Positions 24,435-49,000 of a DNA stretch of 64,000 nucleotides are shown here, in pieces. The position numbers were made by a program, and so were the translations under genes. Every line of letters starts with the position of its first letter. Position 1 is the stretch's first letter. Source of the stretch: Pirellula sp. (GTDB taxonomy: Bacteria; Planctomycetota; Planctomycetia; Pirellulales; Pirellulaceae); NCBI GenBank assembly GCA_021300155.1, contig JAJTID010000017.1, positions 1 through 64,000 of the forward strand, written 5' to 3'. Under the pieces are notes generated by a model, which saw nothing but the letters and a program-made list of their open reading frames with translations, was not told the origin of the DNA and did no database searches.

Positions 24435-25673
24435 CTAATCTAATCGACCGCATATCATGGTCGCATTATGGCCGCCAAACCCGAAGCTGTTGTTCATTGC
24501 AATCTTCACCTTGCGATCACGCGGTTGGTTTGGCGTAAAGTCTAGATCGCACGCTGGATCAGGAGTGTCGAGGTTAATCGTTGGAGGAATGACTCCATCG
24601 TAGCAAGCTAAAATGGAGAGGATCATCTCGATACTCCCGCTCGCTCCCAACGCATGTCCCAAATGCCCCTTGGTGCTTGAGATCGCGACGGATCTCGCCG
24701 ACTCAGCGAATACATTCTTTACAGCAACCGTCTCGGCTTTGTCTCCCAACGGTGTGCTGGTTCCATGAGCGTTGATGTAGTCAACATCGGAAGCATTTAG
24801 TTTAGCGTCGCGAAGTGCATTCGACATTGCCCGCCCTGCTCCGCGACCTTGTTCGTCGGGGGCCGTGATATGTCCGGCATCACAAGATCCACCGTATCCC
24901 AAAATTTCGCAATAAATACGAGCCCCGCGTCGTTTCGCATGCTCGTATTCTTCAAAGATCAACACGCCACAACCTTCCGAAAGCACAAAACCATCGCGGT
25001 CGGCATCGAAAGGTCTACTCGCTTTTTCTGGTGCATCGTTCCGTGTCGAAAGGGCCTTCATGTTCGCAAAGCCAGACACACCCATTGCGGTAATGGCAGC
25101 TTCGGTACCGCCGGTAATCATCACGTCGGCATCATCGTATTGAATGGCCTTGAGAGCGTCACCCATAGCATTGTTGCTACTCGCACATGCAGTAGCGACT
25201 GCGAAGTTTGGCCCCTGAAGTCCGTACTGAATTGCGATGTTCCCACCCGCCGCATTGAGCATCATTTTCGGGATGGTGAATGGACTAACTCGATCTGGCC
25301 CTTTGCTAAAGAGACGGAACATCTGTTCCTCGATCTCGTTCAGGCCGCCTATGCCAGAGCCAAGGATGACGCCGCAACGCGTCGCATCCTCTTTCGAAAA
25401 CTCAATCCCACAATCTTTTACAGCGTGATAAGCTGCATACATCGCGAAAAGAGTAAAACGATCAAGTCGCTTTATTTCTTTCGGCTCAACCGCCGTGCCG
25501 GGGTCGAAGTTAGTTACATCCCCGCCAAAACGGACTTTGTGATGCGTGGTATCAATGATGGAAAGAGGATGTATGCCACTCTTTCCATCCAAGACTGCTT
25601 TCCATAGATCTGCAACATCACAAGACAGGGGCGTTACGCATCCTAAGCCTGTTACGACTACACGACGTCTCAT
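24435..25673 (-). CDS. fabF: Beta-ketoacyl-ACP synthase II
   Basis: FabF condenses malonyl-ACP with acyl-ACP during fatty-acid elongation in the cytoplasm. The catalytic triad is Cys163 (ATACASS), His303 (NAHGTSTPLGD) and His340 (KGHLGHALGASG), the same numbering as the E. coli enzyme. The start MRRRVVVTGLG was chosen over a TTG four codons upstream because it gives the family's exact N-terminus and a length of 412 aa. It is downstream of acpP on the same strand with a 45-base gap, forming the common acpP-fabF pair. Confidence 0.97.
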   Translation of the reverse strand: MRRRVVVTGLGCVTPLSCDVADLWKAVLDGKSGIHPLSIIDTTHHKVRFGGDVTNFDPGTAVEPKEIKRLDRFTLFAMYAAYHAVKDCGIEFSKEDATRCGVILGSGIGGLNEIEEQMFRLFSKGPDRVSPFTIPKMMLNAAGGNIAIQYGLQGPNFAVATACASSNNAMGDALKAIQYDDADVMITGGTEAAITAMGVSGFANMKALSTRNDAPEKASRPFDADRDGFVLSEGCGVLIFEEYEHAKRRGARIYCEILGYGGSCDAGHITAPDEQGRGAGRAMSNALRDAKLNASDVDYINAHGTSTPLGDKAETVAVKNVFAESARSVAISSTKGHLGHALGASGSIEMILSILACYDGVIPPTINLDTPDPACDLDFTPNQPRDRKVKIAMNNSFGFGGHNATMICGRLD

Positions 25674-25718
25674 CAAAAAACCCAAAAAACAGAGGTTGTT
25701 CTATCGAAGTGCAAAGGC

Positions 25719-33200: not shown

Positions 33201-34712
33201 ATGATTGGGATGCCAAAGAAAAACTCAATGGCGGACGAACACAGCTTCCGCTCAGTTCGTTCGGCGGAACGCGGAATGCTGTCAAAATCTAGTCTCCATT
33301 CAAAGTTCGCGAGGACTGCACTTTTTTGTGCTGTCTGTTTGGCGTCATGCCATGCGTCTTTGTGCTGGGCACAAGAATTTCCACCTGCCGATGCTCCTGA
33401 TTCCATTTCCTGGCGGGAGGTGACCACCGATTCGCTAGAGATGGAAAGTCGGCTCGATGCCCTAAACGACCGAATCCTCAAACTAGAACAGACGAGCAAA
33501 GAGTCAGGTAAAACCAAAATCAAACCTGCGAGTTCCCCGAGTCCAATCCCATCAGAGAAATGGGGCTCGTCGGATAAATGGAATGTGCAACTGGGCGGAC
33601 ATATTCAAACCGACTTTGTCACCTGGGCAAATGCAGACCCTTCGATTCCGAACACACAAAACTATGCGAATTTTCGAAGACTCCGTTTGTTGGCTGACGG
33701 AGTAGGCTATGACAGTTACGATTTTCGATTGCAGTTGACGCTCGAACCCGAAGGCGAAACCACGGCCTTAACAGCGACCGGACTCGTAAAAGATGCTTAC
33801 TTCTCGCTCAACGACATCCCTGGCCTAGGGCGATTTCGAATCGGCCACTTCTTTGTTCCGTTCAGCCTCGAACAAGTGACTAACGACACGAACAATATTT
33901 TTCTAGAACGATCCATTCCAACACAAACGGTTTTTGCTGCGGACCGCGAAATAGGGGTGGCACTTTACAATCACTCGGAAGACAAACGATTGCACTGGGC
34001 GACGGGTGCCTTCATCGACAGCCATCCTGAAGGAACCAAGAAACGGTTCGATGACAATCAAGGCTTGCGGCTCAGCGGGCGAATGACATATCTACCATAC
34101 TTTGACGAGGCATCCGAAGGACGGTACCTGGTTCATACGGGCATCGGAATACTCCATACCGAAGCCAGCGACCATACGGTTCGTTTTCGGACGAGACCTC
34201 AAATCTCCGAAGGCCCAAGGCTCATCGATAGTGGTGCGTTGTTTGCAGATAGTTTTACCACTGGCAATCTGGAAGGCGCGATCGTCTGGGAACGATTCAC
34301 GATCCAATCCGAAGCGTTTTTGTCGGGTGTGAATTTGAACAACGGTCCTCAAACAACGGCGACAGGTGCCTATGTCCATCTCAGTTGGTTTCTGACTGGC
34401 GAGAGTCGAATGTATGAAAGGTACGGTCAACATGGCTCACAATTTGGAAGAAACCGACCTTTTCGCAATTTCTCGGTCAAACGCGGCGCCATGCAACCAG
34501 GCGCTTGGGAACTCAAGACTCGTTGGTCTCGTCTGGATTTGGATAACTTCCAACGCGGAACCTACAATGACTTCACGTTGGGTGTGAATTGGTATTGGAG
34601 CGATCGGGTTCGCATGATGTTCGATTGGATTCGACCCTATACAAGCAAATCAACCGTAGTCGGGAAAACGGATTCCGATATTCTCGGGCTCCGCTGGGAT
34701 ATAAACTGGTAG
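33201..34712 (+). CDS. Outer-membrane porin of the OprP/OprO family
   Basis: The protein resembles phosphate-selective porins O and P. The mature part has a short coiled-coil-like helix (~75-95, ESRLDALNDRILKLEQ), as in trimeric planctomycete porins. Beta-barrel strands follow: WNVQLGGHIQTDFVTW, NFRRLRLLADG, DFRLQLTLEPEGE, LGRFRIGHFFVPFSLEQ and a C-terminal DSDILGLRWDINW ending in an aromatic residue. A signal-like segment (SKFARTALFCAVCLASCHASLCWAQ) begins about 30 residues in. The true start could therefore be ATG 33276 instead of 33201. The presence of an outer-membrane porin fits a diderm envelope. Substrate unproven. Confidence 0.85.
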   Translation: MIGMPKKNSMADEHSFRSVRSAERGMLSKSSLHSKFARTALFCAVCLASCHASLCWAQEFPPADAPDSISWREVTTDSLEMESRLDALNDRILKLEQTSKESGKTKIKPASSPSPIPSEKWGSSDKWNVQLGGHIQTDFVTWANADPSIPNTQNYANFRRLRLLADGVGYDSYDFRLQLTLEPEGETTALTATGLVKDAYFSLNDIPGLGRFRIGHFFVPFSLEQVTNDTNNIFLERSIPTQTVFAADREIGVALYNHSEDKRLHWATGAFIDSHPEGTKKRFDDNQGLRLSGRMTYLPYFDEASEGRYLVHTGIGILHTEASDHTVRFRTRPQISEGPRLIDSGALFADSFTTGNLEGAIVWERFTIQSEAFLSGVNLNNGPQTTATGAYVHLSWFLTGESRMYERYGQHGSQFGRNRPFRNFSVKRGAMQPGAWELKTRWSRLDLDNFQRGTYNDFTLGVNWYWSDRVRMMFDWIRPYTSKSTVVGKTDSDILGLRWDINW

Positions 34713-34858
34713 CGAGATAGCTGAATCGATCGAATATTGAAACGTACTCCGATGTTGAGTCGCCTCCAAATCACAAACGGTCAGCAAGAAAAACAGAGAC
34801 ACGGATCCGAACTAGAATGGTGACTCCAATTTAGAGAACAATCTTTTTGCATCATACC

Positions 34859-36151
34859 ATGTTACTCACTCTTTCCGTCGCTGTTGTAGCGATTTTCACT
34901 CTGTCGCTTGCGCAATTCGTGTTCGCTTGCGTCTACGCTCGGCTGTTCACCAAAAGTTCGAATCGATATGCCGACCCATCGATCGACAAGACCGTTTACT
35001 GTCCTAAAGCTGCAGTTATCATCGCTCTTCGTGGCGCGGATCCAGGTTTGGAAAAGAACTTGCTATCTGTTTTGGAACTCGATTATCCCGACTACACTTT
35101 CTGTATCAACGTGGATAGCGTCCACGACTCCGCTTGGAAAATCGCGGCCAGAGTTCGCGATGTCGCACCCAGCCGTGTTCAACTATTGACGTTACAAAAC
35201 AAACTTACCACGTGCAGCCTCAAATGCAGTGCTTTAGCCGAAGCTGTTGAGGCGCAACATCCTGACGTTGAAGTAATTGCAATTCTCGATGGGGATGTAT
35301 CTCCACATAAGACATGGTTGCAAGAATTGGTTCAACCGCTCCAGGACCCAACCGTCGGCGCTACAACAGGAAATCGATGGTACACGCCCGCGCATTGTAG
35401 TTGGGGAGCTCTCGTCCGATACTTTTGGAATACGGGGGCTGTTGTCCAAGTGTGGCTGAACGGAATCACATGGGGTGGAAGCATGGCCATGAAGCGAGAC
35501 GTCATCAATCGCACTGGTATGTTAGAGACATGGCGTCGCTCCCTCGTGGATGATGGGGCTGTCGTGCGTGTCCTAAGAATAAATAAGCTTCGCGTTGCCT
35601 TTGTTCCGTCCGTCATGGTACCCAATTGCGAGGATATTCGGATTACAAATTTTATCCCTTGGGCCGAGAGGCAGATGATTGCAGCCAAATCTGCTGCAAG
35701 CGGTTGGACCGTTATCGTTCTTCATGCATTGCTCATCGCCATTTGTGTTCTGTTGCCACCAGCGATTGTTTTGTTGGGTGTCATCCGCAACGACAAGGGC
35801 GTATTGCTTTTGGGATTGGCTGGAGTATTCGTGTACTGGGGCCTGGCTATTTTGTCATCGATTGTGGTAGAACGAGGAGTCATGCAGTCTCTCTTCGTCA
35901 GTCGCGGTTCCGCGAAGTGGATTAATCGTCGAGTCCTGCTGGTGTATCTTCCAGCTTTGGTACTCACCCATTTGGTTTATTGGCGAGTTCTCTGGGGAGC
36001 GTGTCGGCGGAATCGTGTGGGATGGCGAGGCATCGAATATAGGCTGCTGGGAATGCACGACGTCGAGATGGTGGCGTATCACCCGCACAGTCCGACGCTT
36101 TCTACGGAACAATACGACAATGCGCAGTCCACTTTGGAGTCCGTGATTTAG
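34859..36151 (+). CDS. Ceramide-glucosyltransferase-like (GT2/GT21) membrane glycosyltransferase A
   Basis: This enzyme would transfer a sugar from a nucleotide sugar to a lipid at the cytoplasmic face of the membrane. It has an N-terminal membrane segment, a GT-A domain with the nucleotide-sugar region (AAVIIALRGADPGLEKNLLS), the metal-binding DGD (144-146), a VDDGAV acceptor-site Asp region and WAERQMIA in the place of (Q/R)xxRW. Three C-terminal membrane segments follow. The architecture matches GT21 ceramide glucosyltransferases and HpnI of hopanoid synthesis. It is a clear paralogue of the gene at 41431, sharing GATTGNRWYxP, NG(I)xWGGxxAxK and the ending GWRGIxY. ATG 34859 is preferred to TTG 34847. 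430 aa. Confidence 0.87.
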   Translation: MLLTLSVAVVAIFTLSLAQFVFACVYARLFTKSSNRYADPSIDKTVYCPKAAVIIALRGADPGLEKNLLSVLELDYPDYTFCINVDSVHDSAWKIAARVRDVAPSRVQLLTLQNKLTTCSLKCSALAEAVEAQHPDVEVIAILDGDVSPHKTWLQELVQPLQDPTVGATTGNRWYTPAHCSWGALVRYFWNTGAVVQVWLNGITWGGSMAMKRDVINRTGMLETWRRSLVDDGAVVRVLRINKLRVAFVPSVMVPNCEDIRITNFIPWAERQMIAAKSAASGWTVIVLHALLIAICVLLPPAIVLLGVIRNDKGVLLLGLAGVFVYWGLAILSSIVVERGVMQSLFVSRGSAKWINRRVLLVYLPALVLTHLVYWRVLWGACRRNRVGWRGIEYRLLGMHDVEMVAYHPHSPTLSTEQYDNAQSTLESVI

Positions 36152-36441
36152 GACTGCGGCCGCATTGTAACGTGGAAAGAACGTCTGCAAGAGTACTTTC
36201 GCGGACAGTATCTTTGCTTAAAGCCACGAAACGACCCGTTAGCGTCCTGACAACCATTTTCCCAAAACGGAAAAAGCTACGAGTCAAGCCGAAGTGAGGA
36301 ATAAAGAAATGGGACGACACTGGATGCAAATTTTACGACGGACGTTATAAATCGTTGGTTGTCGAGAGAGAGCATTTCGAACGGGATGGTGCTCTAGCGA
36401 AAAAAAGTCGTTCTTGAGTTACTTCGTCGAGGGTTGTTAGA
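36152..36441. other. 290-base gap in front of the thioester-reductase-like gene
   Basis: No gene is visible. The region ends with GAGGG (36430-36434) before the TTG start at 36442. The frame before TTG is closed by a TGA about 27 bases upstream and has no ATG, so a promoter probably lies here for the genes that follow. Confidence 0.45.
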
Positions 36442-37647
36442 TTGTCTAACTATTTGCTTCTAACGGGTGCAACCGGTTTACTCGGGCGTTATTTAGTTCG
36501 GGATCTTTTGGAGAGGGGTGAGCGATTAGCATTGTTGGTTCGCGGCTCCAAAAGAGAGAGCGCCGAGGAACGCGTGGAAGCCATTCTTGCGTACTGGGAA
36601 GAAATCTCAGGACGGCGATTACAGCGACCTGTCCTATTGCAAGGCGACATACGACAACCTCTCTTGGGACTTGGGAAATCTGAAGTGCAGTGGGTTTCCA
36701 AGAACTGCCATTCGATGATGCATAGCGCTGCCTCCCTAAAATTTCTTGAAGACGGATCGGGGGAACCACGACTGACCAACATTGAGGGAACGCGAAACAT
36801 GCTCTCTCTCTGCAATGCTGCCAGCATTCGGCAGTTGCACTATGTTTCAACAGCCTACGTTTGTGGGCTTCGAAAAGGAATCATTTATGAGCATGAACTG
36901 GATTGCCAGCAGGAGTTTCGAAACGATTACGAGAAGAGCAAACTGGAAGCGGAGACGCTGGTTAGGAACGCGGATTTTTTCGATCGGTTAACTGTCTATC
37001 GACCCGCGGTCATTTCTGGTGATTCGAAAACTGGATATACGAACACGTATCATGGAATTTATCTTTACCTGAGATTGATGGCGTTGCTCGTGCCGCGCCA
37101 GCCAATAGGGCCGGATGGCTTACGCCTGACACGATTGCGACTTCCGATGACTGGAAATGAACGACGCAATGTGGTCCCTATCGATTGGGTTTCACGTGTG
37201 ATGACTGAACTATACCTGACCCCAGAAGCACATGGCCAAACATTTCATTTAGCCCCGGAGGAGTGTTTGACTCCAAAGCAAATCATCGACGCAGGTTACA
37301 GTTACTTTAACTCGACAGGTATCGAGTATGTAGGCTACCAGTATATTGACCCCGCGACGTACAATGCTTTCGAAATGGAGATGTTGCCGGGACTTTCCAT
37401 GTATAGCAATTACGAGAGTACGGACCCGATATTCGATTGCACCAACGTAAAGCACTTCGCACCTCATGTTCCTTGCCCGAGAATTGACGAAGCGATGTTA
37501 CACACGTACATTCGCTATGGTGAAGAAGATCGATGGGGGAAACGTAAGACTCCTGCCCGCTCCAAAGAAATCCATAGCCCTGAGGAAATTTTCCCTTATT
37601 CGTATAGGGAACAGACGGAGAATGCCGATTCCAACGCGGTTTCCTAG
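36442..37647 (+). CDS. Thioester-reductase-like extended SDR protein
   Basis: The N-terminal cofactor motif TGATGLLG (8-15) and the LVRG segment match the NAD-binding_4/thioester reductase group that reduces carrier- or CoA-bound acyl chains, or modifies sugars. HSAASLKF, NIEGTRNMLSLC and YVSTAYVCG are typical, and the catalytic Tyr163/Lys167 lie in NDYEKSKLEAE. Length 401 aa. The start is TTG, since no ATG exists between the preceding stop and the conserved motif. No carrier or adenylation domain is fused. It is followed by the exporter gene after 66 bases, so it likely acts on the acyl part of the exported product. Confidence 0.82.
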   Translation: MSNYLLLTGATGLLGRYLVRDLLERGERLALLVRGSKRESAEERVEAILAYWEEISGRRLQRPVLLQGDIRQPLLGLGKSEVQWVSKNCHSMMHSAASLKFLEDGSGEPRLTNIEGTRNMLSLCNAASIRQLHYVSTAYVCGLRKGIIYEHELDCQQEFRNDYEKSKLEAETLVRNADFFDRLTVYRPAVISGDSKTGYTNTYHGIYLYLRLMALLVPRQPIGPDGLRLTRLRLPMTGNERRNVVPIDWVSRVMTELYLTPEAHGQTFHLAPEECLTPKQIIDAGYSYFNSTGIEYVGYQYIDPATYNAFEMEMLPGLSMYSNYESTDPIFDCTNVKHFAPHVPCPRIDEAMLHTYIRYGEEDRWGKRKTPARSKEIHSPEEIFPYSYREQTENADSNAVS

Positions 37648-37713
37648 CATTGGATCGCCCCCAAGGCATTCATAACATCTGGACAACTTCGCTAGCAAAC
37701 CGAGAGTGTAGCA

Positions 37714-40059
37714 ATGAAATCGGAAGGCACCGACGGTAGCAGAGTACCAAACTGGCCTCCGAGATGGCTACCTCTCGTCGCTATCTTGCTCGTCACGGTT
37801 CTTTGGCCGATTGTCATGATCGGCGCACAGCGCGCATGGTTGAAATCCAAGAATCGCGTCGAAGATTGGCTTCCGGATGGATTTGCGGAAACAAAGAGCT
37901 TGCGCGAATTTGAAGAACGCTTCGGAGGCGACGAGTTCTTGATGATCAGTTGGCCCGGTTGCACGCTCAATGACCCACGCGCGGAGCGTTTGACCGAACT
38001 CTTGCGACAACCTGCCGAAGATGGCAAGGTCCTGTTTTTGAGCGCCGACAGTGGCTCGCAAATCGTCGAGTCGATGATACAAACAAGGAAGTTCACCGAA
38101 GAACAGGCCAAGCGAAGATTATCCGGCATCTTTGTTGGAAAAGATGGCCTTCAAACCTGTGTCATCGCATGCGTCTCCGATGTAGGAGCATCCGATCGAA
38201 AAAAAGCCGTCGACTACGCTCGACGTACGGCCGAAAAAGCAACGGAGCTACCTGCGTCGGAAATTCACATCGCGGGGACAACAGCAGATTCAGTAGCAGT
38301 CGATGAGGCGAGTAACGCATGGTTGATTGAACTCAATGTCTTGTCATACTTCGTCTGTTTTGGAATTCTGATTATCTCCATCAGAAACATCTGGCTTGTC
38401 GGAACAGTTTTTTTGACGGCCATGCTCAATCAACAACTCGCACTAGCAGTTATTTATTACAGTGGCGGTCATGTTGATTCGGTGCAACTTCTTGTTGCGA
38501 ACCTAAGCTTTGTATTGACGATTTCGGCGGGGCTGCATTACTTAGGGTACTTTCGCGATGCGATCCGTTCAAAATCTCTGTCACCCGCTCGACTTGCGTT
38601 GCAGCAAGCTTTTCTACCATCGATGCTTGCTGCCATCACCACATCTTTGGGATTTGTTTCTCTGTGCACAAGTGAACTCGTACCAATTCGATCATTCGGA
38701 TTTTACTCAGCAATCCTTGTTCCTATCAATTCGCTGGTCGTTATCACCCTTCTAACCATTCATTCAACTTGGGCTGTCAATCGCAACTGGCGGTTTCAGT
38801 CGATTGCGAAATTGAATGCATTATCGCCGATGGATGACAAACAAGAAAAACACTCGGATGTCTGGTCGAGAGTTTGCATTCCACTCCTGCGTCGACGGCC
38901 TTTAATGATCATATTCGTTTGGGTTACGATCATGCTGACCGCTGGCTGGGGCGTGACCAAACTGACAACGAATGTGGGAACGCATCAGTTGCTTCCTCCC
39001 GATTCAAAGCTCATTAAGGATTATGCGTGGCTCGAGCAACATGTCGGTCCATTGGTACCCGTTGAACTTGTTGTTAGCATGCCTGAGTTGGAGGATCAGA
39101 ATGCTTCCGATCTCTTAATTCGTTTGCAAACACTCGACGAACTCCAAGATCGCTTCCGCGAGGTCGAGGGAATTGAAGGAACGTTTTCGGCTTTGAATTT
39201 GATTCCCGCCTTGCCAACCAAAACCGGTATCGGTGGTTCAGTTCGGCGCTCGTTGATTGGAGCCGCAGTACTGAGATCTGCAGACAAATTTCAAGAAATG
39301 CGATTTTTGTATGAGGATGAACAACGTCAATACTGGCGTATCAGCGGACGAATCTCCGGATCGCGAAATCGGGATTTTGAGGCTTTACTGGCCAATTGCC
39401 AAACCATGATGGATCGCTTCGCTGCAGAACCAGGTCATGAGTCCATGCGTCTCGACTTGAGTGGTGGCGTTCCGTTTGTGTATCGAACTCAGCGACAGCT
39501 ATTGGCAGACTTGCTCAATAGTTTTTCATCCGCATTTGCGATGATTGCACTTTCCATGGCAATCCTCTTTCGAAGTGTCATGGGGGGATTGTTAACGATG
39601 TTGCCAAATCTTACTCCAGCTGCGATCGTTTTCGGACTGATGGGGTGGAATGGGTTAAGCGTGGAGATCGGTACGGTCTTGACAGCAAGCGTGATGATGG
39701 GTGTCTGTGTCGATGATACACTCCACTTAGTCTCACACTTCCGACAATTGAGACAGAAAGGTCTCTCGCACGATGCGGCCGTGAGTGAAGCACTGTCAAA
39801 TTGTGGCGGGGCGATGCTTCAGACGGCGCTTGTATGCGGATTAGGAATGCTCGTTTTCTCGTTGAGTCCCTTCACTCCCGTTGCCCGTTTTGCTTGGCTA
39901 ACGTTCACGCTCCTGATGGTCGGTGTCGTAAGCGACTTGATGCTAACACCTGCGATGTTGTTATCGCCACTCCATCATTTATTCTACTGGGAGCGCCGAC
40001 CCAAAGCCCAACCGAGAGTATCTATCCCGACAACGCATGTGTCCTCTAATGTCGCGTGA
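37714..40059 (+). CDS. MMPL/RND-superfamily lipid exporter
   Basis: The topology is that of RND proteins: TM1 (~18-37), a large periplasmic loop (~40-200), TM2-6 (~200-345), TM7 (~394-412), a second loop (~412-595) and TM8-12 (~597-760). The motif VCVDDTLHLVSHFRQLRQ near residue 660 is the proton-relay Asp region of MMPL/HpnN/Patched-like members. Length 781 aa is within the family range. Known relatives export lipids (MmpL in mycobacteria, HpnN for hopanoids). Overlap with the acyltransferase gene (40037) couples their translation, suggesting that the transporter moves what the enzymes make. Confidence 0.9.
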   Translation: MKSEGTDGSRVPNWPPRWLPLVAILLVTVLWPIVMIGAQRAWLKSKNRVEDWLPDGFAETKSLREFEERFGGDEFLMISWPGCTLNDPRAERLTELLRQPAEDGKVLFLSADSGSQIVESMIQTRKFTEEQAKRRLSGIFVGKDGLQTCVIACVSDVGASDRKKAVDYARRTAEKATELPASEIHIAGTTADSVAVDEASNAWLIELNVLSYFVCFGILIISIRNIWLVGTVFLTAMLNQQLALAVIYYSGGHVDSVQLLVANLSFVLTISAGLHYLGYFRDAIRSKSLSPARLALQQAFLPSMLAAITTSLGFVSLCTSELVPIRSFGFYSAILVPINSLVVITLLTIHSTWAVNRNWRFQSIAKLNALSPMDDKQEKHSDVWSRVCIPLLRRRPLMIIFVWVTIMLTAGWGVTKLTTNVGTHQLLPPDSKLIKDYAWLEQHVGPLVPVELVVSMPELEDQNASDLLIRLQTLDELQDRFREVEGIEGTFSALNLIPALPTKTGIGGSVRRSLIGAAVLRSADKFQEMRFLYEDEQRQYWRISGRISGSRNRDFEALLANCQTMMDRFAAEPGHESMRLDLSGGVPFVYRTQRQLLADLLNSFSSAFAMIALSMAILFRSVMGGLLTMLPNLTPAAIVFGLMGWNGLSVEIGTVLTASVMMGVCVDDTLHLVSHFRQLRQKGLSHDAAVSEALSNCGGAMLQTALVCGLGMLVFSLSPFTPVARFAWLTFTLLMVGVVSDLMLTPAMLLSPLHHLFYWERRPKAQPRVSIPTTHVSSNVA

Positions 40060-41434
40060 CTGGACCGAGCACTCGAAACTTGCATGTACCGCCTTTGAAG
40101 AGCTCATGCTTGCCCAGGACAATGTGGCATTCCCGTGTGTGATATGTTTGCGAATGGCTTTCGATGGCAAGCTACAGCGAGAACTCTTCACGCAAGCGAT
40201 CGATTGGATGGTTGAAACGAATCCGCTCTTTCGAAGCAGAATCGTTCGCGGCAAGCTCGGTCGTCACTTCTGGGAAATACAATCGAAGTCAGACTATCCC
40301 ATCCACTGGGAGCAAACAGAGCGAGAGCCGAATTGGCCCAAAACGAGAACCATCGATCTAAAGTCGACAACAGGGGTTGTTGTCGAAGCCATGGAACTAG
40401 CGGATCCAGTCTTGAAATCAATTCGTACGATCATCTTTGTTCACATCCATCATGCAGTCGCAGATGGACAGGGAATCATGCAAGCGATGCACGAAATGTG
40501 GCTACGATACGATGCCTTGTTCCACTCAAATCCATTGCCCAATTGGGAACGTGTTCCGCAAAAGTTGTCGGCCAGGAATCGTTTTGGATTAAACCTCTCC
40601 AAAGTCGCGAAGATGCTACCCAAACTAAGCGTTGGGCTGTTAGGTGTGCGTCAATATGTGATGCGAACCCCTAAGCCTCTCATGGATACGCTGGATCCAA
40701 TAAAATTCAAAGAGGCGGAGCCGAACATTCATGCAATATCGTTTCGGCTTACAAAAGAAGAATCTCAACGTTTGCGTCAGGCGGTTCAAGTTTGTGAGAA
40801 GACGGTCAATGACGTTGTAGCTGGAATTGTCTTTGAAGCCTGTCTCAAGCTTCTCCAAACGCAAGCAACCTTTCGAGACAACGATTGGCTTCGAATGATG
40901 GTCCCGATTAGCATGCGAGGATCCGAAGAGTATCGTCGGCAAACTGCATGCAACATCGTCAGTTGTGTCTTTCTGGATCGAGTTCCCGCTCAGATCAAGG
41001 ACCGAGCAACGCTCCTTCAAAGCGTGCATGATGAGTTGGAGCTAATCAAAAAGAATCGATTGGCTTTCCTTTTCGTCTTCTCGATCTGGTTGAGAAAGAT
41101 GTTTACCCTTCCTTGGCCAAATGCAACAGGTAAGGTGCCGAGTCGCTGCCAAACCAGTGTTGTTTTTTCAAATCTAGGCCGTGTTTTCTCCGATGGTCGC
41201 GCAGCCACCAGACGCTTTGTTGCTGGGGATGTGACTTTGGAGAACGTTGCTATTCTCGCACCACTAAGTCCTTGGATGATGGCGACTTTCGTTGCGACTC
41301 AATATGTCGGCGAACAGCAGTTAACTTTGCGATACGATAGTCGTTGGATCTCGGAACTGCAGGCTAGATCGCTAGTCGATCATTGTCAACAACAACTTCA
41401 ACAATTCGGCGAACGACCACAAGGTGCTACATGA
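40037..41434 (+). CDS. HHxxxDG acyltransferase (condensation/WS-DGAT/PapA-like)
   Basis: The catalytic motif HHAVADG is at residues 138-144, inside VHIHHAVADGQG. A C-terminal RCQTSVVFSNLGRVF and the later LAPLSPWMMATFVATQY match the second half of this fold, which is shared by peptide-synthetase condensation domains, wax ester/DGAT enzymes and mycobacterial PapA acyltransferases. It is a stand-alone protein of 465 aa, the length expected for such acyltransferases. It overlaps the exporter gene by 23 bases (11 if ATG 40049 is used) and the next glycosyltransferase by 4 bases (ATGA). It presumably esterifies the glycolipid or its lipid precursor. Confidence 0.83.
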   Translation: MCPLMSRDWTEHSKLACTAFEELMLAQDNVAFPCVICLRMAFDGKLQRELFTQAIDWMVETNPLFRSRIVRGKLGRHFWEIQSKSDYPIHWEQTEREPNWPKTRTIDLKSTTGVVVEAMELADPVLKSIRTIIFVHIHHAVADGQGIMQAMHEMWLRYDALFHSNPLPNWERVPQKLSARNRFGLNLSKVAKMLPKLSVGLLGVRQYVMRTPKPLMDTLDPIKFKEAEPNIHAISFRLTKEESQRLRQAVQVCEKTVNDVVAGIVFEACLKLLQTQATFRDNDWLRMMVPISMRGSEEYRRQTACNIVSCVFLDRVPAQIKDRATLLQSVHDELELIKKNRLAFLFVFSIWLRKMFTLPWPNATGKVPSRCQTSVVFSNLGRVFSDGRAATRRFVAGDVTLENVAILAPLSPWMMATFVATQYVGEQQLTLRYDSRWISELQARSLVDHCQQQLQQFGERPQGAT

Positions 41435-42690
41435 GCTGGTTCCTCGCACTGTGTGTCTCGCTTTTCGTCTCTGGGATAAGTCAGTTTCTTTTGGTGGCTG
41501 GGTATATTGCGCGACTACGACGGCCAGCCAAGAAACTTATCGATGACTTCGAAGCACCAAAGGCTACGGTGGTTCTGTGTTTGAGAGGCGGTGATCCTTT
41601 TCTGAAGCGATGCCTTCACGGCTTGAATAATCAAGACTATCCCAACTACCGCGTTACGATGGTCGTCGACTCCGAAGTTGATCCGTCTCGCCGAATTCTC
41701 GACGAGTTTTTCTCGGAAGCACCGCTAACTAACTTTGAAGTAATCTATCTTGGTCATCCACTAGAGTCATGCAGCCTAAAGTGCTCAAGTCTTATCACTG
41801 CACTAACGCCAAAAGTGGATTCCGATGGCTTCGTCGCCTTTGTAGATGCGGATACGATTCCGCATCCATCATGGTTAAGGGAATTAGCAACTGGGCTTCA
41901 GCCGTCCGATGTTGGAGCAGCCACCGGCAATCGCTGGTACATACCAGAACAGCCAAGTCTTGGTTCGATGATAAGGCACGTCTGGAATGGGGCCGCCATC
42001 GTGCAAATGTTTTGGTACGACATAGCCTGGGGTGGTACGCTGGCAGTAAAGTGGGACACCATCCGAAGAGCCAAATTGCTGGAACGATGGAGCCACGCTC
42101 TTTGCGAAGATACGATGTTGTGTCGTGAATTGAAATCGATTTCGCAGAGAATCGCTTTTGTTCCTGGCTGTATGATGATCAACCGAGAAGATTGTACCCT
42201 TGAATCATTCTTTCCATGGGTAATGCGTCAACTCTTAACCGCTAGGTTGTACCACCCCAAATGGTTTGCTGTCGTAGGACACGGCGTCACCTCTGCTGGA
42301 TTGCTACTTTGGGGTTGGCTGAGTTTTCTTCGCTGCCTTTGTATGAGAGAATGGGCATTGGCCTCGATGTATGTAATGGCGATGGTTAGCTACCATGCGT
42401 TGTTAACGGTTATGTTGCCTTGGATAGAGTCTGCGGTAATATCGATTGCGGAACGACGTGGTGAGAGCACTCGTTGGGCGAGACCTGTGGGGTGGCTGAG
42501 ATTCGCAGCGTTTGTCTGGCTCACTCAATGGGTTTACACATGGGCTCTTCTTGGTAGTCTTGGGATGAAGAGAGTCTCATGGCGAGGCATTCAATACGAG
42601 ATTCAAACTGGGTCCCGAATCCGAATGCACGGGTACACCCCATACGAAAAAGAATTCGATTCAACCGATACCACAAAACAATCACTCTAG
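41431..42690 (+). CDS. Ceramide-glucosyltransferase-like (GT2/GT21) membrane glycosyltransferase B
   Basis: Paralogue of the gene at 34859, with an N-terminal membrane helix (WFLALCVSLFVSGISQFLLVA), ATVVLCLRGGDPFL, DAD (139-141), ALCEDTMLCREL, PWVMRQLLTARL in place of the (Q/R)xxRW site, and three C-terminal membrane segments. The ATG at 41431 overlaps the acyltransferase stop (ATGA); the frame upstream of it lies inside that gene. Length 419 aa. The second acidic site, ED, is more canonical than in copy A (DD), so the two may differ in donor or acceptor. Together they could add two sugars to one lipid. Confidence 0.88.
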   Translation: MSWFLALCVSLFVSGISQFLLVAGYIARLRRPAKKLIDDFEAPKATVVLCLRGGDPFLKRCLHGLNNQDYPNYRVTMVVDSEVDPSRRILDEFFSEAPLTNFEVIYLGHPLESCSLKCSSLITALTPKVDSDGFVAFVDADTIPHPSWLRELATGLQPSDVGAATGNRWYIPEQPSLGSMIRHVWNGAAIVQMFWYDIAWGGTLAVKWDTIRRAKLLERWSHALCEDTMLCRELKSISQRIAFVPGCMMINREDCTLESFFPWVMRQLLTARLYHPKWFAVVGHGVTSAGLLLWGWLSFLRCLCMREWALASMYVMAMVSYHALLTVMLPWIESAVISIAERRGESTRWARPVGWLRFAAFVWLTQWVYTWALLGSLGMKRVSWRGIQYEIQTGSRIRMHGYTPYEKEFDSTDTTKQSL

Positions 42691-43057: not shown

Positions 43058-46000
43058 ATGGCTGCCACCACAAGTCCGAAGACAAAACACCTTTCCTGTG
43101 TCCTTCCTGGGTCAAAGACCGAGTCTGTTGCTTTAGAACCGCCGTTTCGAGACGAGTTACTCAGCGCCGAACAACTCGAACGACATGCAAAGCATTTGGC
43201 GTCGACGGACAAGCTGGCGGTGGGGAAAGTCGCTGATACGCTGATCAACAGGTTGGCAGAGAATGAGAAAATACTTCAGTTGACGTATGACGAAGTTACG
43301 GCAGCTGTTGTCAAGAATCGTCGGATTGCTCCGGCTGCCGAGTGGTTGCTCGACAATTTCTATCTATTGGAAGAGCAAATTCACTCGACTCGTCGACTTT
43401 TGCCTCGATCTTACAGCCAAGAGCTGCCACGCCTGACGGACGGGCCAGCAGCAAACTATCCGCGAGTGTATGCGATATCGTTAGAGCTGATATCGCACAC
43501 GGATGGCCGCGTGGATGCGCAAGCTTTGGAGGGGTTCATCACCGCTTATCAATCGGTCGTACCGCTACGTTTGGGCGAGCTATGGGCTTTGCCCCTAATG
43601 CTTCGGTTGGCGCTTATCGAGAACTTGAGGAGGGTTGCAGCGCGCATCGCAGTCGCACGAAGGGATCGAAACTTGGCTGCTGATTGGGCCGACCAAATGA
43701 TTGAAACGGTCGAGCAGTGTCCGTCCGACTTGATTCTCGTCCTCGCCGATATGGCTCGTTCGAACCCGCCACTTTCGGGGGCTTTTCTGGCCGATTTGAC
43801 ACGCCATCTTCACGGACAGAATCCCAATTTCGCGATGGTACACGGTTGGCTTGAACATCGACTGATGGATTCGGGATACACCACCGAACAACTTGTGCTG
43901 GACGAAGGGCAACTGCAAGCGGCCGAGCAAATCTCGGTTGGTAACAGCATTACGAGTTTGCGATTTCTGAGTGTTCATGATTGGCCGCAGTTTGTCGCGA
44001 GACAAAGTCTTGTTGAGCAAACGCTCATACGCGATCCATCGAAAGTCTACGAGTTCATGGACTTTCAAACTCGCAATCGTTATCGACATGCGGTGGAAGC
44101 GATCGCAAAACGCTCAAAGGTCTCGGAGTTTGACGTTGCATTTCGAGCGATCCAACTCGCGGAAAACGAACCAGCCGACAACCCCAGTTCAAGGATGCGC
44201 CATGTCGGCTACTATCTAATCGATCAAGGGCGTCCTGCTCTCGAACGACTCGTTCAGATGCGACTCAACACATCTGTGGTTGTCGATAAGTTTCGACGGG
44301 CGTTTCCCTTGTCGATCTATATGACCGCAGTTTTTCTGTTTGCTTTCCTTGGGATTTTTGGTTTGTTTCACTTGAGCGAATGGTCGTCGAACTCCGTGCT
44401 TTTACGTTGCATCATTGCCATTCCTCTTGTGATGTGTGCGGTCCAACTTGGGTTGGGTATCGTAAACTGGCTAGTAACGATTCTTGTGCGGCCCAATGCG
44501 TTGCCTCGAATGGATTTTCGTACAGGCGTTCCGACTGAACATCGTACCCTCGTGGTTGTCCCAACGATGTTGACTGATGTTGATTCCGTCGAACGGTTGC
44601 TAGAGGGGCTGGAGCTTCGTTTTTTGGCCAACCGCGATCCATCTTTTCAGTTCGCATTGTTGACAGACTTTCAGGATTCGGATCAGGCAACCAATGCGAA
44701 CGATCGAGGGCTCGTGATGCATGCACAGCGAGGCATCGAACGACTCAATCAAACCTACTTCGAAGAAGACAGGACATCATTTTTTCTTTTGCATCGAAGC
44801 AGGAAATGGAATGAATCCGAAGGCGCATGGATGGGGTTCGAGCGCAAGCGAGGCAAGCTAGCCGATCTCAATGCGGTGCTACGCGGTGCGACCGATCGAT
44901 TCTCCGACACCTCAGGCAATTTAAGCGACTTGGAGCGTGTGCGCTATGTGATCACGCTTGATACGGATACACAACTTCCTCGCGATGCAGCTCGTAAAAT
45001 GGTCGAGGTAATGGCTCACCCACTGAATCGCCCCAAGTTTGATGAGAAGACTGGGTTGGTCACTTCTGGGTATTCGATCCTGCAACCACGTGTAGCCATA
45101 AGCATGGCGAGTTCGCAGCGGTCGTGGTTTGTTCGGCTTGTAGGTTCCGACCCAAGCATTGATCCTTACACACGTGTAGTCTCCGATGTCTATCAAGATC
45201 TTTTTAACGAAGGATCCTTTATTGGCAAAGGGATTTACGATGTCGATGCATTCGAAAAGTGTTGTGGTAACTTTCCTACCAATGCAATCCTCAGTCATGA
45301 TCTGCTGGAAAGTTGTTTCGGACGATCGGCACTGATTAGCGATGTCACCTTGTACGAAGACCATCCGTCCAGTTACGCAGCCGATGTAAGTCGGCGTCAC
45401 CGGTGGATTCGAGGGGATTGGCAAATCGCCGCTTGGCTTCTACCTCGGGTACGAGGTACGCACTCTTCACCCATCCGCAATCCTATTTCAGCATTGTCCA
45501 GTTGGAAGATCTTTGACAATCTTCGACGAAGCTTGATGCCGATTGCGATGGTAGTTCTGTTGCTCTGTAGCTGGCTGATGACAAGTCCGACCACTGCGGT
45601 GGCGACAACATTATTTGTTGTGTTGGTGGTTATTGCACCCAGGATTCTAGCGGCCTTGATCGATTTCGCCTTCAAACCGACCGATCTGTCAATCGCAACC
45701 CATTTGAAATCCGCGTTAGGTGCGATTGTACGTCCCGTCGCTCAATCCATGTTCACGTTGGTATTCTTGCCATACGAAGCTTGGATAAGTATGGATGCGA
45801 TCGTACGCACGTTGGTGCGTGTGCATTGGACGAAACGGCGGTTGCTAGAATGGCGAACTTCCTGCGATTCCGAACGTTTAGCCCGCACTGATTTCGCTGG
45901 ATTTTACCGAACCATGTGGGTTGCGCCTGTGGTGGCGGCTTCTTCGTTTGCAATCATCGCATGGTTCAATCGACCAGTACTTTCAACTGCTAGTCCTTTT

Positions 46001-49000
46001 TTGATTCTTTGGGTCCTTTCACCTGCGATCGCTTGGTGGTTGAGTCGATTGATCCCGGTGAAGAATGATCGACTCAAAGAGCCCCAACGCCAGTTCTTGC
46101 GTGTCATGGCGCGAAGAACATGGCGGTACTTTGAGGAATTCACGACGGTACAAGACAACTGGTTACCACCAGACAACGTGCACGTAAACCCAAATGCTGT
46201 GATCGCTTCCCGAACTAGTCCGACCAACATTGGGATGGGACTTTTGGCGGACCTGGCAGCATACGATTTCGGATACTGTTCTGTTGAACAGCTTGTGACG
46301 CGGACGAAAAACACGCTCGGAACACTCGAGAGAATGGAGCGATACCGTGGCCATTTCTTCAATTGGTACAACACCAGGACTTTAGCACCACTGCTGCCTC
46401 GCTATGTATCCACGGTTGATAGCGGCAATCTCATCGGTCATTTAAGAGTGCTGGCGGCTGGCTTTGAGCAAATCATCGACACCCCGATCGCTTCTACCAA
46501 TCTGTTCCGAGGAATTCACGACACGCTGGCGATATTGCTACAGGATATAGCTTCGAACACCCCGCAAATTGTCGATGTCGCAACGCGTTTGGTAGGTAGT
46601 GCCACCCACCGGCGTATTGAGTCACAGATGGAGATATTAGGAAGGCAAGAGGCGAAAATCAGTGTTGGACTAGAGATTCTTCCGAAGCTCCGAGGTGAAT
46701 TGGCCGAGCTGAAAGCAACCCTTACGAATCAATCGGAAGCCATTTGGTGGTGCGATGCTGTGCTACGGACTTGTGATGGACAGCTTGCGGAATTGCGTGC
46801 CCTGGGCCAATGGTCCACTCTCGCACTGCCCGACGAATCGTCTTGGGGAGGAGCGACAACTCCTATCTCGGAACTTTTGAAGAAACTTCAAACAGAATTA
46901 GATAGTGCCGAAGCGAACGCAACACTGCGGAGTATCGCTGCCTTTCCTGAAACGGTCTGTCTGCGAATTGATGCGATTCGGCCTCTTCTCATGGATGCCA
47001 ATCGCGATTTGGGAGCGCCATCTACCGAAATCTTGGATTGGTTGAACGCTCTGCATCTGTCGATGACAGAGTCTGCCGAGTTTGCCCTGCATCGAATCGA
47101 GGAGCTAGAGTCTCTATGCTTCAACTGTAGAGAAATTGCCAAGATGGATTTCCAATTCTTGGAAAGCAAGATGCGAGATCTGTTTTCCATCGGATTCAAT
47201 GTCACCGAAAACCAATTGGATTCTGGTTGCTATGACTTGTTGGCCTCGGAAGCCCGGCTAGCCACCTATGTTCTGATTGCCCAAGGACAGATAGGGCAGG
47301 AGCATTGGTTCTCGTTGGGACGATTGCTCACGAATGCCGATGGTGCGCCAGCTCTGTTGAGTTGGAGCGGCTCGATGTTCGAGTACTTGATGCCATTGTT
47401 GGTCATGCCAACCTACGACCACACGTTGCTCGACCAAACGTATCGTGCCGTAGTCTCTCGACAAATAGATTATGGCCGACAACGAGGAGTGCCGTGGGGT
47501 GTGTCCGAGTCGGGCTACCAAGCTTTCGACCTCAATCTCAATTATCAGTATCGAGCCTTTGGTGTTCCAGGTTTAGGTCTCAAGAGAGGGCTCGCAGAAG
47601 ACTTGGTTATCGCGCCATATGCTTCTGCATTAGCCTTGATGGTGGCCCCTGATATGGCATGTCGCAATCTCGAACGACTTGCACGCGATGGCCGTTCCAG
47701 TGCATGTGGATTTTATGAAGCCGTCGATTACACCGCTTCGAGACTACCGCCTGGAAGCAGCAGTGTTACGATCCGACAATACATGGCACACCATGCCAGC
47801 ATGAGTTTGCTCTCTTTTGCATATATCCTCTTGGATAAACCTATGCAGAAGCGTTTCAACCTGGATCTAACGTTGCGTTCAACAGAACTATTGCTCCAAG
47901 AACGCGTTCCGAGAAATACAGTCCCTCTCTTTCCGCACGCCAACGAAGCGAATGCTGCTCGTCCCTCGACCGCAGAAGAGTCGGGGACCATGCGTGTGTT
48001 CTCGGATCCAACGACGGCGGTACCTGAGGTGCATCTTCTTTCTAACGGCCAGTATCACGTGGCGATCACCAGCGCAGGGGGTGGTTACAGTCGATGGCGT
48101 GGGGTTTCTGTCACTCGTTGGCGTGAAGACCCTACACGCGATTGCTGGGGAAATTTCTGTTATGTGCGCGATCTAGACAGCGGTACAGTTTGGTCGACAG
48201 CGTGGCAACCGACAACCACTGCCGCAAAAAAGTATGAAGCTATATTCACGCAGGCCCGAGCGGAGTTTCGCCGCATCGATGAGCAGATCGAGATGCATAC
48301 GATGATCAGCGTTGCATCGGAAGATGACTTGGAGTTGCGTCGAACGAAGCTTACGAATCGATCCGACCGCGCTCGCCGCATTGAGATCACAAGCTATGCC
48401 GAAGTGGTCTTGGCAGCTCAGACGCAGGACGAATCCCATGCCTCCTTCAGCAATTTATTCGTTCAGACAGAGCTATTGAACAAGCAAGGAGCGATTCTGT
48501 GCACGCGGCGACCGCGATCTGCCGAAGAGCAGCCCCCCTGGATGATACATATGATGACTGCAACCGGTAAGCAATTGGACGAAACGTCTTATGAAACGGA
48601 CAGGATGCAATTCATCGGTCGAGGTAGGTCGACCGATTCTCCGAATGCTCTTCAGAGTCGTGGTCCACTTACGAATAGTCAAGGTGCTACGCTCGACCCG
48701 ATCGTGAGCATTCGCAAAGTTCTGCTCATTCAACCGAATGAGACTGTGACGGTAGACTTGATAACTGGGATGGGAGAATCCTGTGAAGTCGCGACCGCTA
48801 TGGTGGAGAAGTATCTCGATTCAAGCCTGGCGGATCGAGTCTTTGAACTCGCATGGACGCGAGGACTGATCATGTTGCAGCAACTCAATGCATCGGAATC
48901 GGAGTCGCTGACTTTCAGTCGCTTGGCCGGATCTGTGATCTTTGCATCGCGGATGCGACGTGCGAAGTCTGGTGTACTCGTTCAGAATCGGCGTGGGCAG

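Follow-up and report, generated by a model that had tools for sequence, protein, structure and literature searches.

A stretch of 64,000 nucleotides from Pirellula sp. (contig JAJTID010000017.1 of assembly GCA_021300155.1; the whole stretch is called the window here) carries five neighboring genes that we read as a module for glycolipid tailoring and export. They encode two GT21-type glycosyltransferases (GTs; GTA and GTB), a thioester-reductase-type short-chain dehydrogenase/reductase (SDR), an exporter of the MMPL family with a resistance-nodulation-division (RND) fold, and an acyltransferase (AT). The SDR together with a GT21-like enzyme is the conserved heart of this module; MMPL, AT and a second GT are optional, lineage-specific additions. 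From the gene families, the SDR and AT motifs, the predicted folds of AT and MMPL, the linkage and co-occurrence of SDR and GT genes and the grouping of the exporters we infer the aglycone, the substrates, the sugar, the order of steps and the transport direction as follows. By reduction, the SDR would turn an acyl thioester of the ordinary fatty-acid pool (acyl-CoA or acyl-ACP, with ACP for acyl carrier protein) into a long-chain alcohol. GTB, joined by GTA where present, would attach one or two sugars to the hydroxyl on the inner side of the membrane, and AT would add a further acyl chain to a sugar or lipid hydroxyl. MMPL would then extract the completed glycolipid from the inner membrane and pass it on towards the outer one. 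Reduction and glycosylation would be the conserved part of this scheme, with acylation and export as optional steps. We assign this reading a probability of about 0.47.

All five open reading frames (ORFs) are encoded on the plus strand between 34847 and 42690, and the coordinates given for them in an earlier note on this DNA were all reproduced, as were its family calls: two GT21-type GTs, a thioester-reductase-type SDR, an MMPL exporter and an HHxxxDG acyltransferase. The ORF of GTA (34847-36151) opens with TTG 34847, and its start is probably ATG 34859 (34859..36151). The SDR gene (36442..37647) has a TTG start and is followed by MMPL (37714..40059), AT (40037..41434) and GTB (41431..42690). 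For GTB the ORF extends from TTG 41383 to 42690, and ATG 41431, which shares an ATGA with the stop codon of AT, is most likely the true start; most aligned relatives begin near this Met. The physical overlap claimed for the last three genes is real and amounts to 23 nt for MMPL/AT, if AT starts at 40037, and to 4 nt for AT/GTB with the corrected start. SDR, MMPL, AT and GTB are tightly packed, and a gap of 290 nt separates the end of GTA from SDR. Hence, SDR-MMPL-AT-GTB can firmly be regarded as the single unit that was proposed for all five genes, with GTA more loosely attached. A scan for promoters and terminators gave numbers close to the shuffled level (11 vs 9.2 and 9 vs 10.5 sites).

The SDR matched PF07993 (NAD_binding_4) with 160.3 bits at a cut-off of 20.1 and TIGR01746 with 147 bits, below the subfamily cut-off of 213.35. 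Its T-Y-K triad is intact, T137, Y163 and K167 being invariant in 7 aligned sequences. In the PDB the SDR profile retrieved MxaA (E 8.6e-36), an entry which we take to be a reductase domain, as well as a type I polyketide synthase (PKS) entry, nonribosomal peptide synthetase (NRPS) entries and carboxylic acid reductases. Both GTs passed PF13506 (GTA 51.6 bits, GTB 25.1 bits, cut-off 21.7), and GTB also matched PF13641 at 46.3 bits. They are paralogues with 33% identity. Ceramide glucosyltransferase was the top PDB match of the GT profile (E 2.7e-15), and HpnI (TIGR03472) was the best NCBIfam model of GTA and GTB, reaching 77.4 and 68.0 bits, respectively, against a cut-off of 310. GT21 enzymes are characterized by catalytic aspartates and a (Q/R)xxRW motif. 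D96, D155, D157, R282 and Q283 are invariant among 9 aligned GT sequences; the RW of the motif is inexact.

The association of SDR and GT extends well beyond the window, whose closest SDR relatives are found in Pirellula-type Planctomycetota. A search of GTDB contigs retrieved 157 relatives of the SDR; our locus set consists of the best 80, from Planctomycetota. Short contigs are frequent in this set and near-identical strains are included; more than 3 kb are available on both sides in 52 of the 80 loci, and several loci are the same contigs as loci numbered in other homologue searches (e.g. L079, L100). A GT21-like gene was found within 9 kb of SDR in 37/80 loci and within 300 nt in 29/80; among the 52 loci with longer flanks, 23 had a GT within 3 kb. 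GTA orthologues adjoin SDR in L079 and L080. Since a set of 60 genomes holds just 28 GTB-like genes, yet 29/80 loci have a GT within 300 nt, this proximity exceeds chance. On the SDR tree, the presence of a GT within 3 kb required 12 changes compared to a shuffled mean of 26.3.

The 60 genomes, which include that of the window, gave a concordant picture. SDR was detected in 16 of them at E<=1e-60 and in 10 at >=400 bits, GTB in 16 (28 genes) at E<=1e-30 and in 11 at >=290 bits. At the two bit thresholds, which were picked after the tables had been seen, 9 genomes contained both genes, 1 only SDR, 2 only GTB and 48 neither (Fisher p 3.6e-8, a value that is uncorrected for kinship and overstates the independence of related genomes). 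SDR and GTB were located on one contig in 8 of the 9 co-occurring genomes, separated by no more than about 4.1 kb; in the exception, G017, the SDR contig stops just beyond AT. AT-like proteins (E<=0.001) were present in 22/60 genomes.

Around this pair the gene content varies. The order SDR-MMPL-AT-GTB recurs in the window, L103 and L106. GTA-SDR-AT-GTB without MMPL was found in L100, and in L099 the contig breaks off past AT. SDR-AT-GTB occurs in L101, SDR-GTB in L102 and L104, and SDR alone in L105. MMPL-SDR is found in L111 to L118, and the contigs of L111 to L116 carry a GT21-like gene as well; L111 belongs to the named isolate Bythopirellula polymerisocia Pla144, in which MMPL, SDR and GT lie together. 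This variable content rules out a fixed five-gene operon. The comparison of neighborhoods called for in the earlier note thus showed a gene order that is only partly conserved: the orientation of the GT and the accessory genes vary, and the SDR-GT21 core recurs. Its proposal of acylated-glycolipid assembly and export still accounts best for the gene families, their folds and their linkage, but not as a fixed block of five genes, with MMPL near SDR in 12/80 loci (after dropping one weak match of 86 bits, L136) and AT in 7/80.

The exporter matched PF03176 in both halves (89.4 bits, cut-off 20.5). Its structure, predicted from 12 sequences, had a pLDDT (predicted local distance difference test) of 81.7 and an RND fold, with MmpL5, MmpL4 and MmpL3 as top PDB matches, followed by NPC1-type proteins and HpnN. 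Among the sequence models, HAE3 (TIGR00921) ranked first with 140.7 bits, before MmpL (TIGR00833) with 67.8 and HpnN (TIGR03480) with 28.4 bits, and the protein stayed below all three cut-offs (351.9, 874.7 and 751.85, respectively). The comparison with MmpL and HpnN made in the earlier note agrees with the predicted fold of the exporter but not with its sequence scores. The SDR-linked exporters form a mostly distinct clade. From the underlying tree, identical rows and rows of less than 550 aa were removed, and L110, with an MMPL fragment 6 kb from SDR, was omitted. The starred set around the window's exporter comprises 12 rows. All but one are SDR-linked (11 of 12); the exception, L033 (G032), adjoins an ORF that spans at least 2790 aa and gives a ketosynthase (KS) match in L068. 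The exporters of L166 and L034 stand beside an SDR yet fall outside this set (L034 is labelled "other" in the tree, yet its fuller contig L069 has SDR beside the exporter). Together with the variable gene content, SDR-adjacent exporters outside the set and a KS-adjacent one inside it indicate that the SDR, not the exporter, is the anchor of the module. A DD pair of the exporter (D667/D668) is invariant in 12 relatives, as are S271/H275 at the site that, by eye, corresponds to it in the N-terminal half; judged from these residues, the two halves may be unequal in proton relay.

The AT carries HHAVADG at residues 138-144, with H138, H139 and D143 invariant in 8 sequences. Its score on PF03007 (21.0 bits) is just under the cut-off of 23.6. 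The PDB matches of the AT profile were headed by NRPS condensation domains (PvdL, 3.8e-17), followed by 8s6l (9.4e-15), PapA5 (1q9j, 2e-10) and WSD (2.5e-4). The entry 8s6l carries two names, phthiocerol dimycocerosyl transferase in the profile search and AzeD in the structure search. An AlphaFold model from 8 sequences (pLDDT 76.6) likewise matched condensation domains, 8s6l with a TM score (template modeling score) of 0.72 and PapA5 with 0.62. The NCBIfam model scoring best was that of wax ester synthase/diacylglycerol acyltransferase (WS/DGAT; TIGR02946) with 55.7 bits, and the PapA5 model NF006787 reached 24.7 bits (cut-off 396). As the SDR resembles acyl reductases, SDR and AT could together be a wax-ester pathway, joining a fatty alcohol to an acyl donor, with GTs and exporter serving another purpose. 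This is quite improbable: the WS/DGAT cut-off of 309.95 was not reached, the AT profile prefers condensation domains and PapA5-type enzymes to WSD, AT occurs near SDR in 7/80 loci compared to 37/80 for GT, and in the window the AT and GTB genes overlap.

The glycolipid reading is thus supported by the thioester-reductase match with its T-Y-K triad, by SDR-GT linkage and co-occurrence, by the exporter clade and by a recurring gene order. Several observations weigh against it. The exporter failed the MmpL and HpnN cut-offs, AT the PF03007 cut-off and both GTs the HpnI cut-off. MMPL and AT are missing from most SDR loci, and in 40/80 loci, many of them on short contigs, a 9-kb search distance contains none of GT, MMPL and AT. 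On the SDR tree, the 24 rows of one starred clade all lack a GT within 3 kb, which, together with the bare loci, implies that the SDR can act without a GT. The genome G022 has SDR, yet its best GTB match reaches 226 bits. Finally, the genome of the window encodes enzymes for other possible lipid cores (a fusion protein, HpnC, an HpnD-HpnE-type fusion and a protein resembling squalene-hopene cyclase, SHC), and at a number of related loci the neighboring genes favor an isoprenoid core; both are treated below.

For the lipid core we consider a reduced fatty chain the simplest candidate, a ceramide-like core its chief rival and an isoprenoid a live third. The window corresponds to contig C71 of a genome of 6.46 Mb in 260 contigs, estimated to be 99.99% complete and 3.96% contaminated. 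Among the 25 window ORFs scanned no synthase for a lipid core was detected, and the sole KS (24435-25685) is an ordinary FabF (611.6 bits vs 493.75). A single KS query of the Pfa type gave three matches in the whole genome, in frames of 420-446 aa, and the one tested is FabF. A polyketide core made by the organism itself was therefore dropped, a Pfa-type synthase not being found with this one query. The earlier statement that no core synthase is adjacent is accurate for these 25 ORFs; genes elsewhere in the genome keep known lipid cores in play.

The first of these genes, at 4427-7963 of contig C260 (L188), is a frame of 1178 aa with AMP-binding, ACP and alpha-oxoamine-synthase-type domains, that is, a fusion of fatty acyl-AMP ligase, ACP and alpha-oxoamine synthase (FAAL-ACP-AOS). 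It adjoins genes that look ribosomal by eye. The protein is a near-core enzyme that possibly makes sphingoid bases. In a ceramide-like scheme, FAAL-ACP-AOS would make a long-chain 3-keto amine that the SDR reduces, AT acylates, the GT21s glycosylate and MMPL exports. The best PDB match of the GT profile fits this scheme, as does the presence of the fusion in this genome and of matches to it, some in part, in 59/60 genomes (E<=1e-60). Spt-like proteins have also been reported from 138 Planctomycetota metagenome-assembled genomes (PMC11334938). We nevertheless regard a ceramide-like core as unlikely. The fusion is near-universal and SDR reaches 400 bits in 10/60 genomes, so that the two do not co-vary, and the fusion fails as a discriminator between genomes. 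In addition, its AOS half scored higher on BioF (350.2 bits, cut-off 426.45) than on serine palmitoyltransferase (304.5 bits, cut-off 640), and the SDR fits thioester reductases.

A C30 isoprenoid, either a triterpenoid or a glycosylated and acylated C30 carotenoid with the SDR working on an isoprenoid oxygen function, is less likely again. HpnI as best model of both GTs would agree with it, as would the presence in the genome of HpnC (290 bits, above cut-off), of an HpnD-HpnE-type fusion (HpnE half over the cut-off, HpnD half 189.2 vs 278.6) and of an SHC-like protein containing DSDDT. In 16/80 loci, SDR has a gene of the squalene/phytoene-synthase family and LytB as neighbors at a distance of a few kb (L140, L141, L145, L147, L149, L152, L156-L160, L162, L165, L173, L176, L178). 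A GT is present in 15 of these 16, which favors an isoprenoid core there. All 16, however, fall inside one 21-row clade of the SDR tree and their strands alternate, and in the genome of the window the corresponding genes are on a different contig from the module. The SHC-like protein scored 84.4 bits against an SHC cut-off of 431. HpnI depends on HpnH for its acceptor, and no HpnH over the cut-off was found in this genome (best 48 bits vs 225). The hopanoid HpnI pathway was therefore rejected as the principal explanation, in spite of the HpnC, HpnE-type and SHC-like genes.

Relatives of the same genus provide a hint to the substrate of the SDR, the preferred candidate for which is an ordinary acyl thioester. 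In G002, G008 and G012, KS-bearing genes accompany a related SDR and a distant AT. The KS-bearing and associated genes of G002 encode a 3059-aa protein with KS, acyltransferase, ketoreductase (KR) and dehydratase domains, a 929-aa KS protein, a triple-ACP protein and a 3HCDH-KR protein; the 3059-aa protein reached 548.7 bits on PfaA, below the cut-off of 1010. Pfa-like synthases have previously been reported from two planctomycetes (PMC3098273). A sister SDR-AT pair among PKS-type genes suggests long acyl chains as substrate class of the SDR family. In G012, AT is followed by an FtsX-type permease, a homologue of which occupies the same place in G008, and the 240-aa gene between AT and the permease looks ABC ATPase-like by eye.

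Directly downstream of the module, 367 nt beyond GTB, a gene at 43058-51862 (plus strand) encodes a protein of 2934 aa that combines a GH94 catalytic domain and a glucoamylase-like domain with two GH94 supersandwich stretches and looks like an NdvB-type cyclic beta-glucan synthase. This neighbor would suit a non-lipid unit, the GTs of which make a polysaccharide or a cyclic glucan tied to it. Lipids are the substrates of the GT21, acyltransferase and MMPL families, and a homologue of the protein was found in 0/80 SDR loci, on contigs that are often short. A polysaccharide product is therefore disfavored and highly improbable.

Among known systems, the acyl-trehalose, sulfolipid and phthiocerol dimycocerosate (PDIM) clusters of mycobacteria combine PapA with MmpL. 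The module shares with them a condensation-fold acyltransferase beside an MMPL exporter whose model is nearest to MmpL5, MmpL4 and MmpL3. It differs in having a reductase and two GT21s and in its scores below the MmpL and PapA5 cut-offs; neither a PKS nor a FAAL turned up among its genes, so that the "mycobacterial-style logic" of the earlier note is apt as an analogy but not as membership. With ceramide glucosyltransferase and HpnI the GTs share PF13506 and the top structural and NCBIfam matches, but the HpnI scores are far below the cut-off and HpnH is lacking above its own. In the heterocyte (heterocyst) glycolipid island of cyanobacteria, a thioester reductase, a PKS, a glycosyltransferase and an ABC exporter are encoded together (PMC11804610). 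A thioester reductase, a GT for the aglycone and a dedicated exporter are common to both systems. The window module has GT21s, an extra acyltransferase and MMPL instead of an ABC exporter, and no PKS was found with the one KS query of the genome. The PKS-bearing SDR-AT clusters of relatives (L064, L065, L067/L179) resemble the island as well; no GTA or GTB homologue was recognized in them.

We found no published description of such a module in the open-access literature, many subscription papers being outside this coverage. The recurring SDR-GT21 pair and its exporter supply named genes for a glycolipid for which we found no description, and B. polymerisocia Pla144 carries them. We tentatively suggest, with less confidence than the module reading itself, that Planctomycetota may make an unrecognized class of glycolipid at their surface, in which a long chain released by reduction is glycosylated and the glycoside acylated. 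An SDR-GT21 core would have recruited its own MMPL clade and a PapA-like AT, giving an independent counterpart of the heterocyst glycolipid system that does without PKS. If the module reading is right, the heterocyst-type logic of reduction, glycosylation and export would work without a polyketide synthase.

Some further observations concern paralogues, protein tails and neighboring genes. A 2024 paper, which also describes a gene deletion in Stieleria maiorica, links the type III PKS of Planctomycetota to alkylresorcinols; its main text mentions neither MMPL nor RND (PMC10896814). On contig C204 of the genome studied here (L061:2436-13379), an MMPL exporter paralogue stands with a type III PKS, an FAD enzyme, methyltransferases and a YceI-like gene, and thus again with lipid-type enzymes. 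This exporter belongs to a different clade than that of the window, and no SDR, AT, GTA or GTB homologue was found in the C204 stretch. In 66 of the 80 related SDRs, but not in that of the window, a C-terminal tail of at least 80 aa is present, typically with a GPGGGQWT-like motif (e.g. L102-L107, L111-L116, L157) and weakly SCP2-like. An assignment as SCP2 lipid-binding domain was discarded: only 2 of 8 tails matched SCP2 (18.4 and 13.7 bits, cut-off 21.3), a PDB search of the tail returned no SCP2, and no SCP2 protein over the threshold was found in the genome of the window. Directly upstream of GTA, at 33201-34712 on the plus strand, lies a gene for a protein of the phosphate-selective porin O/P family (PF07396, 142 bits).

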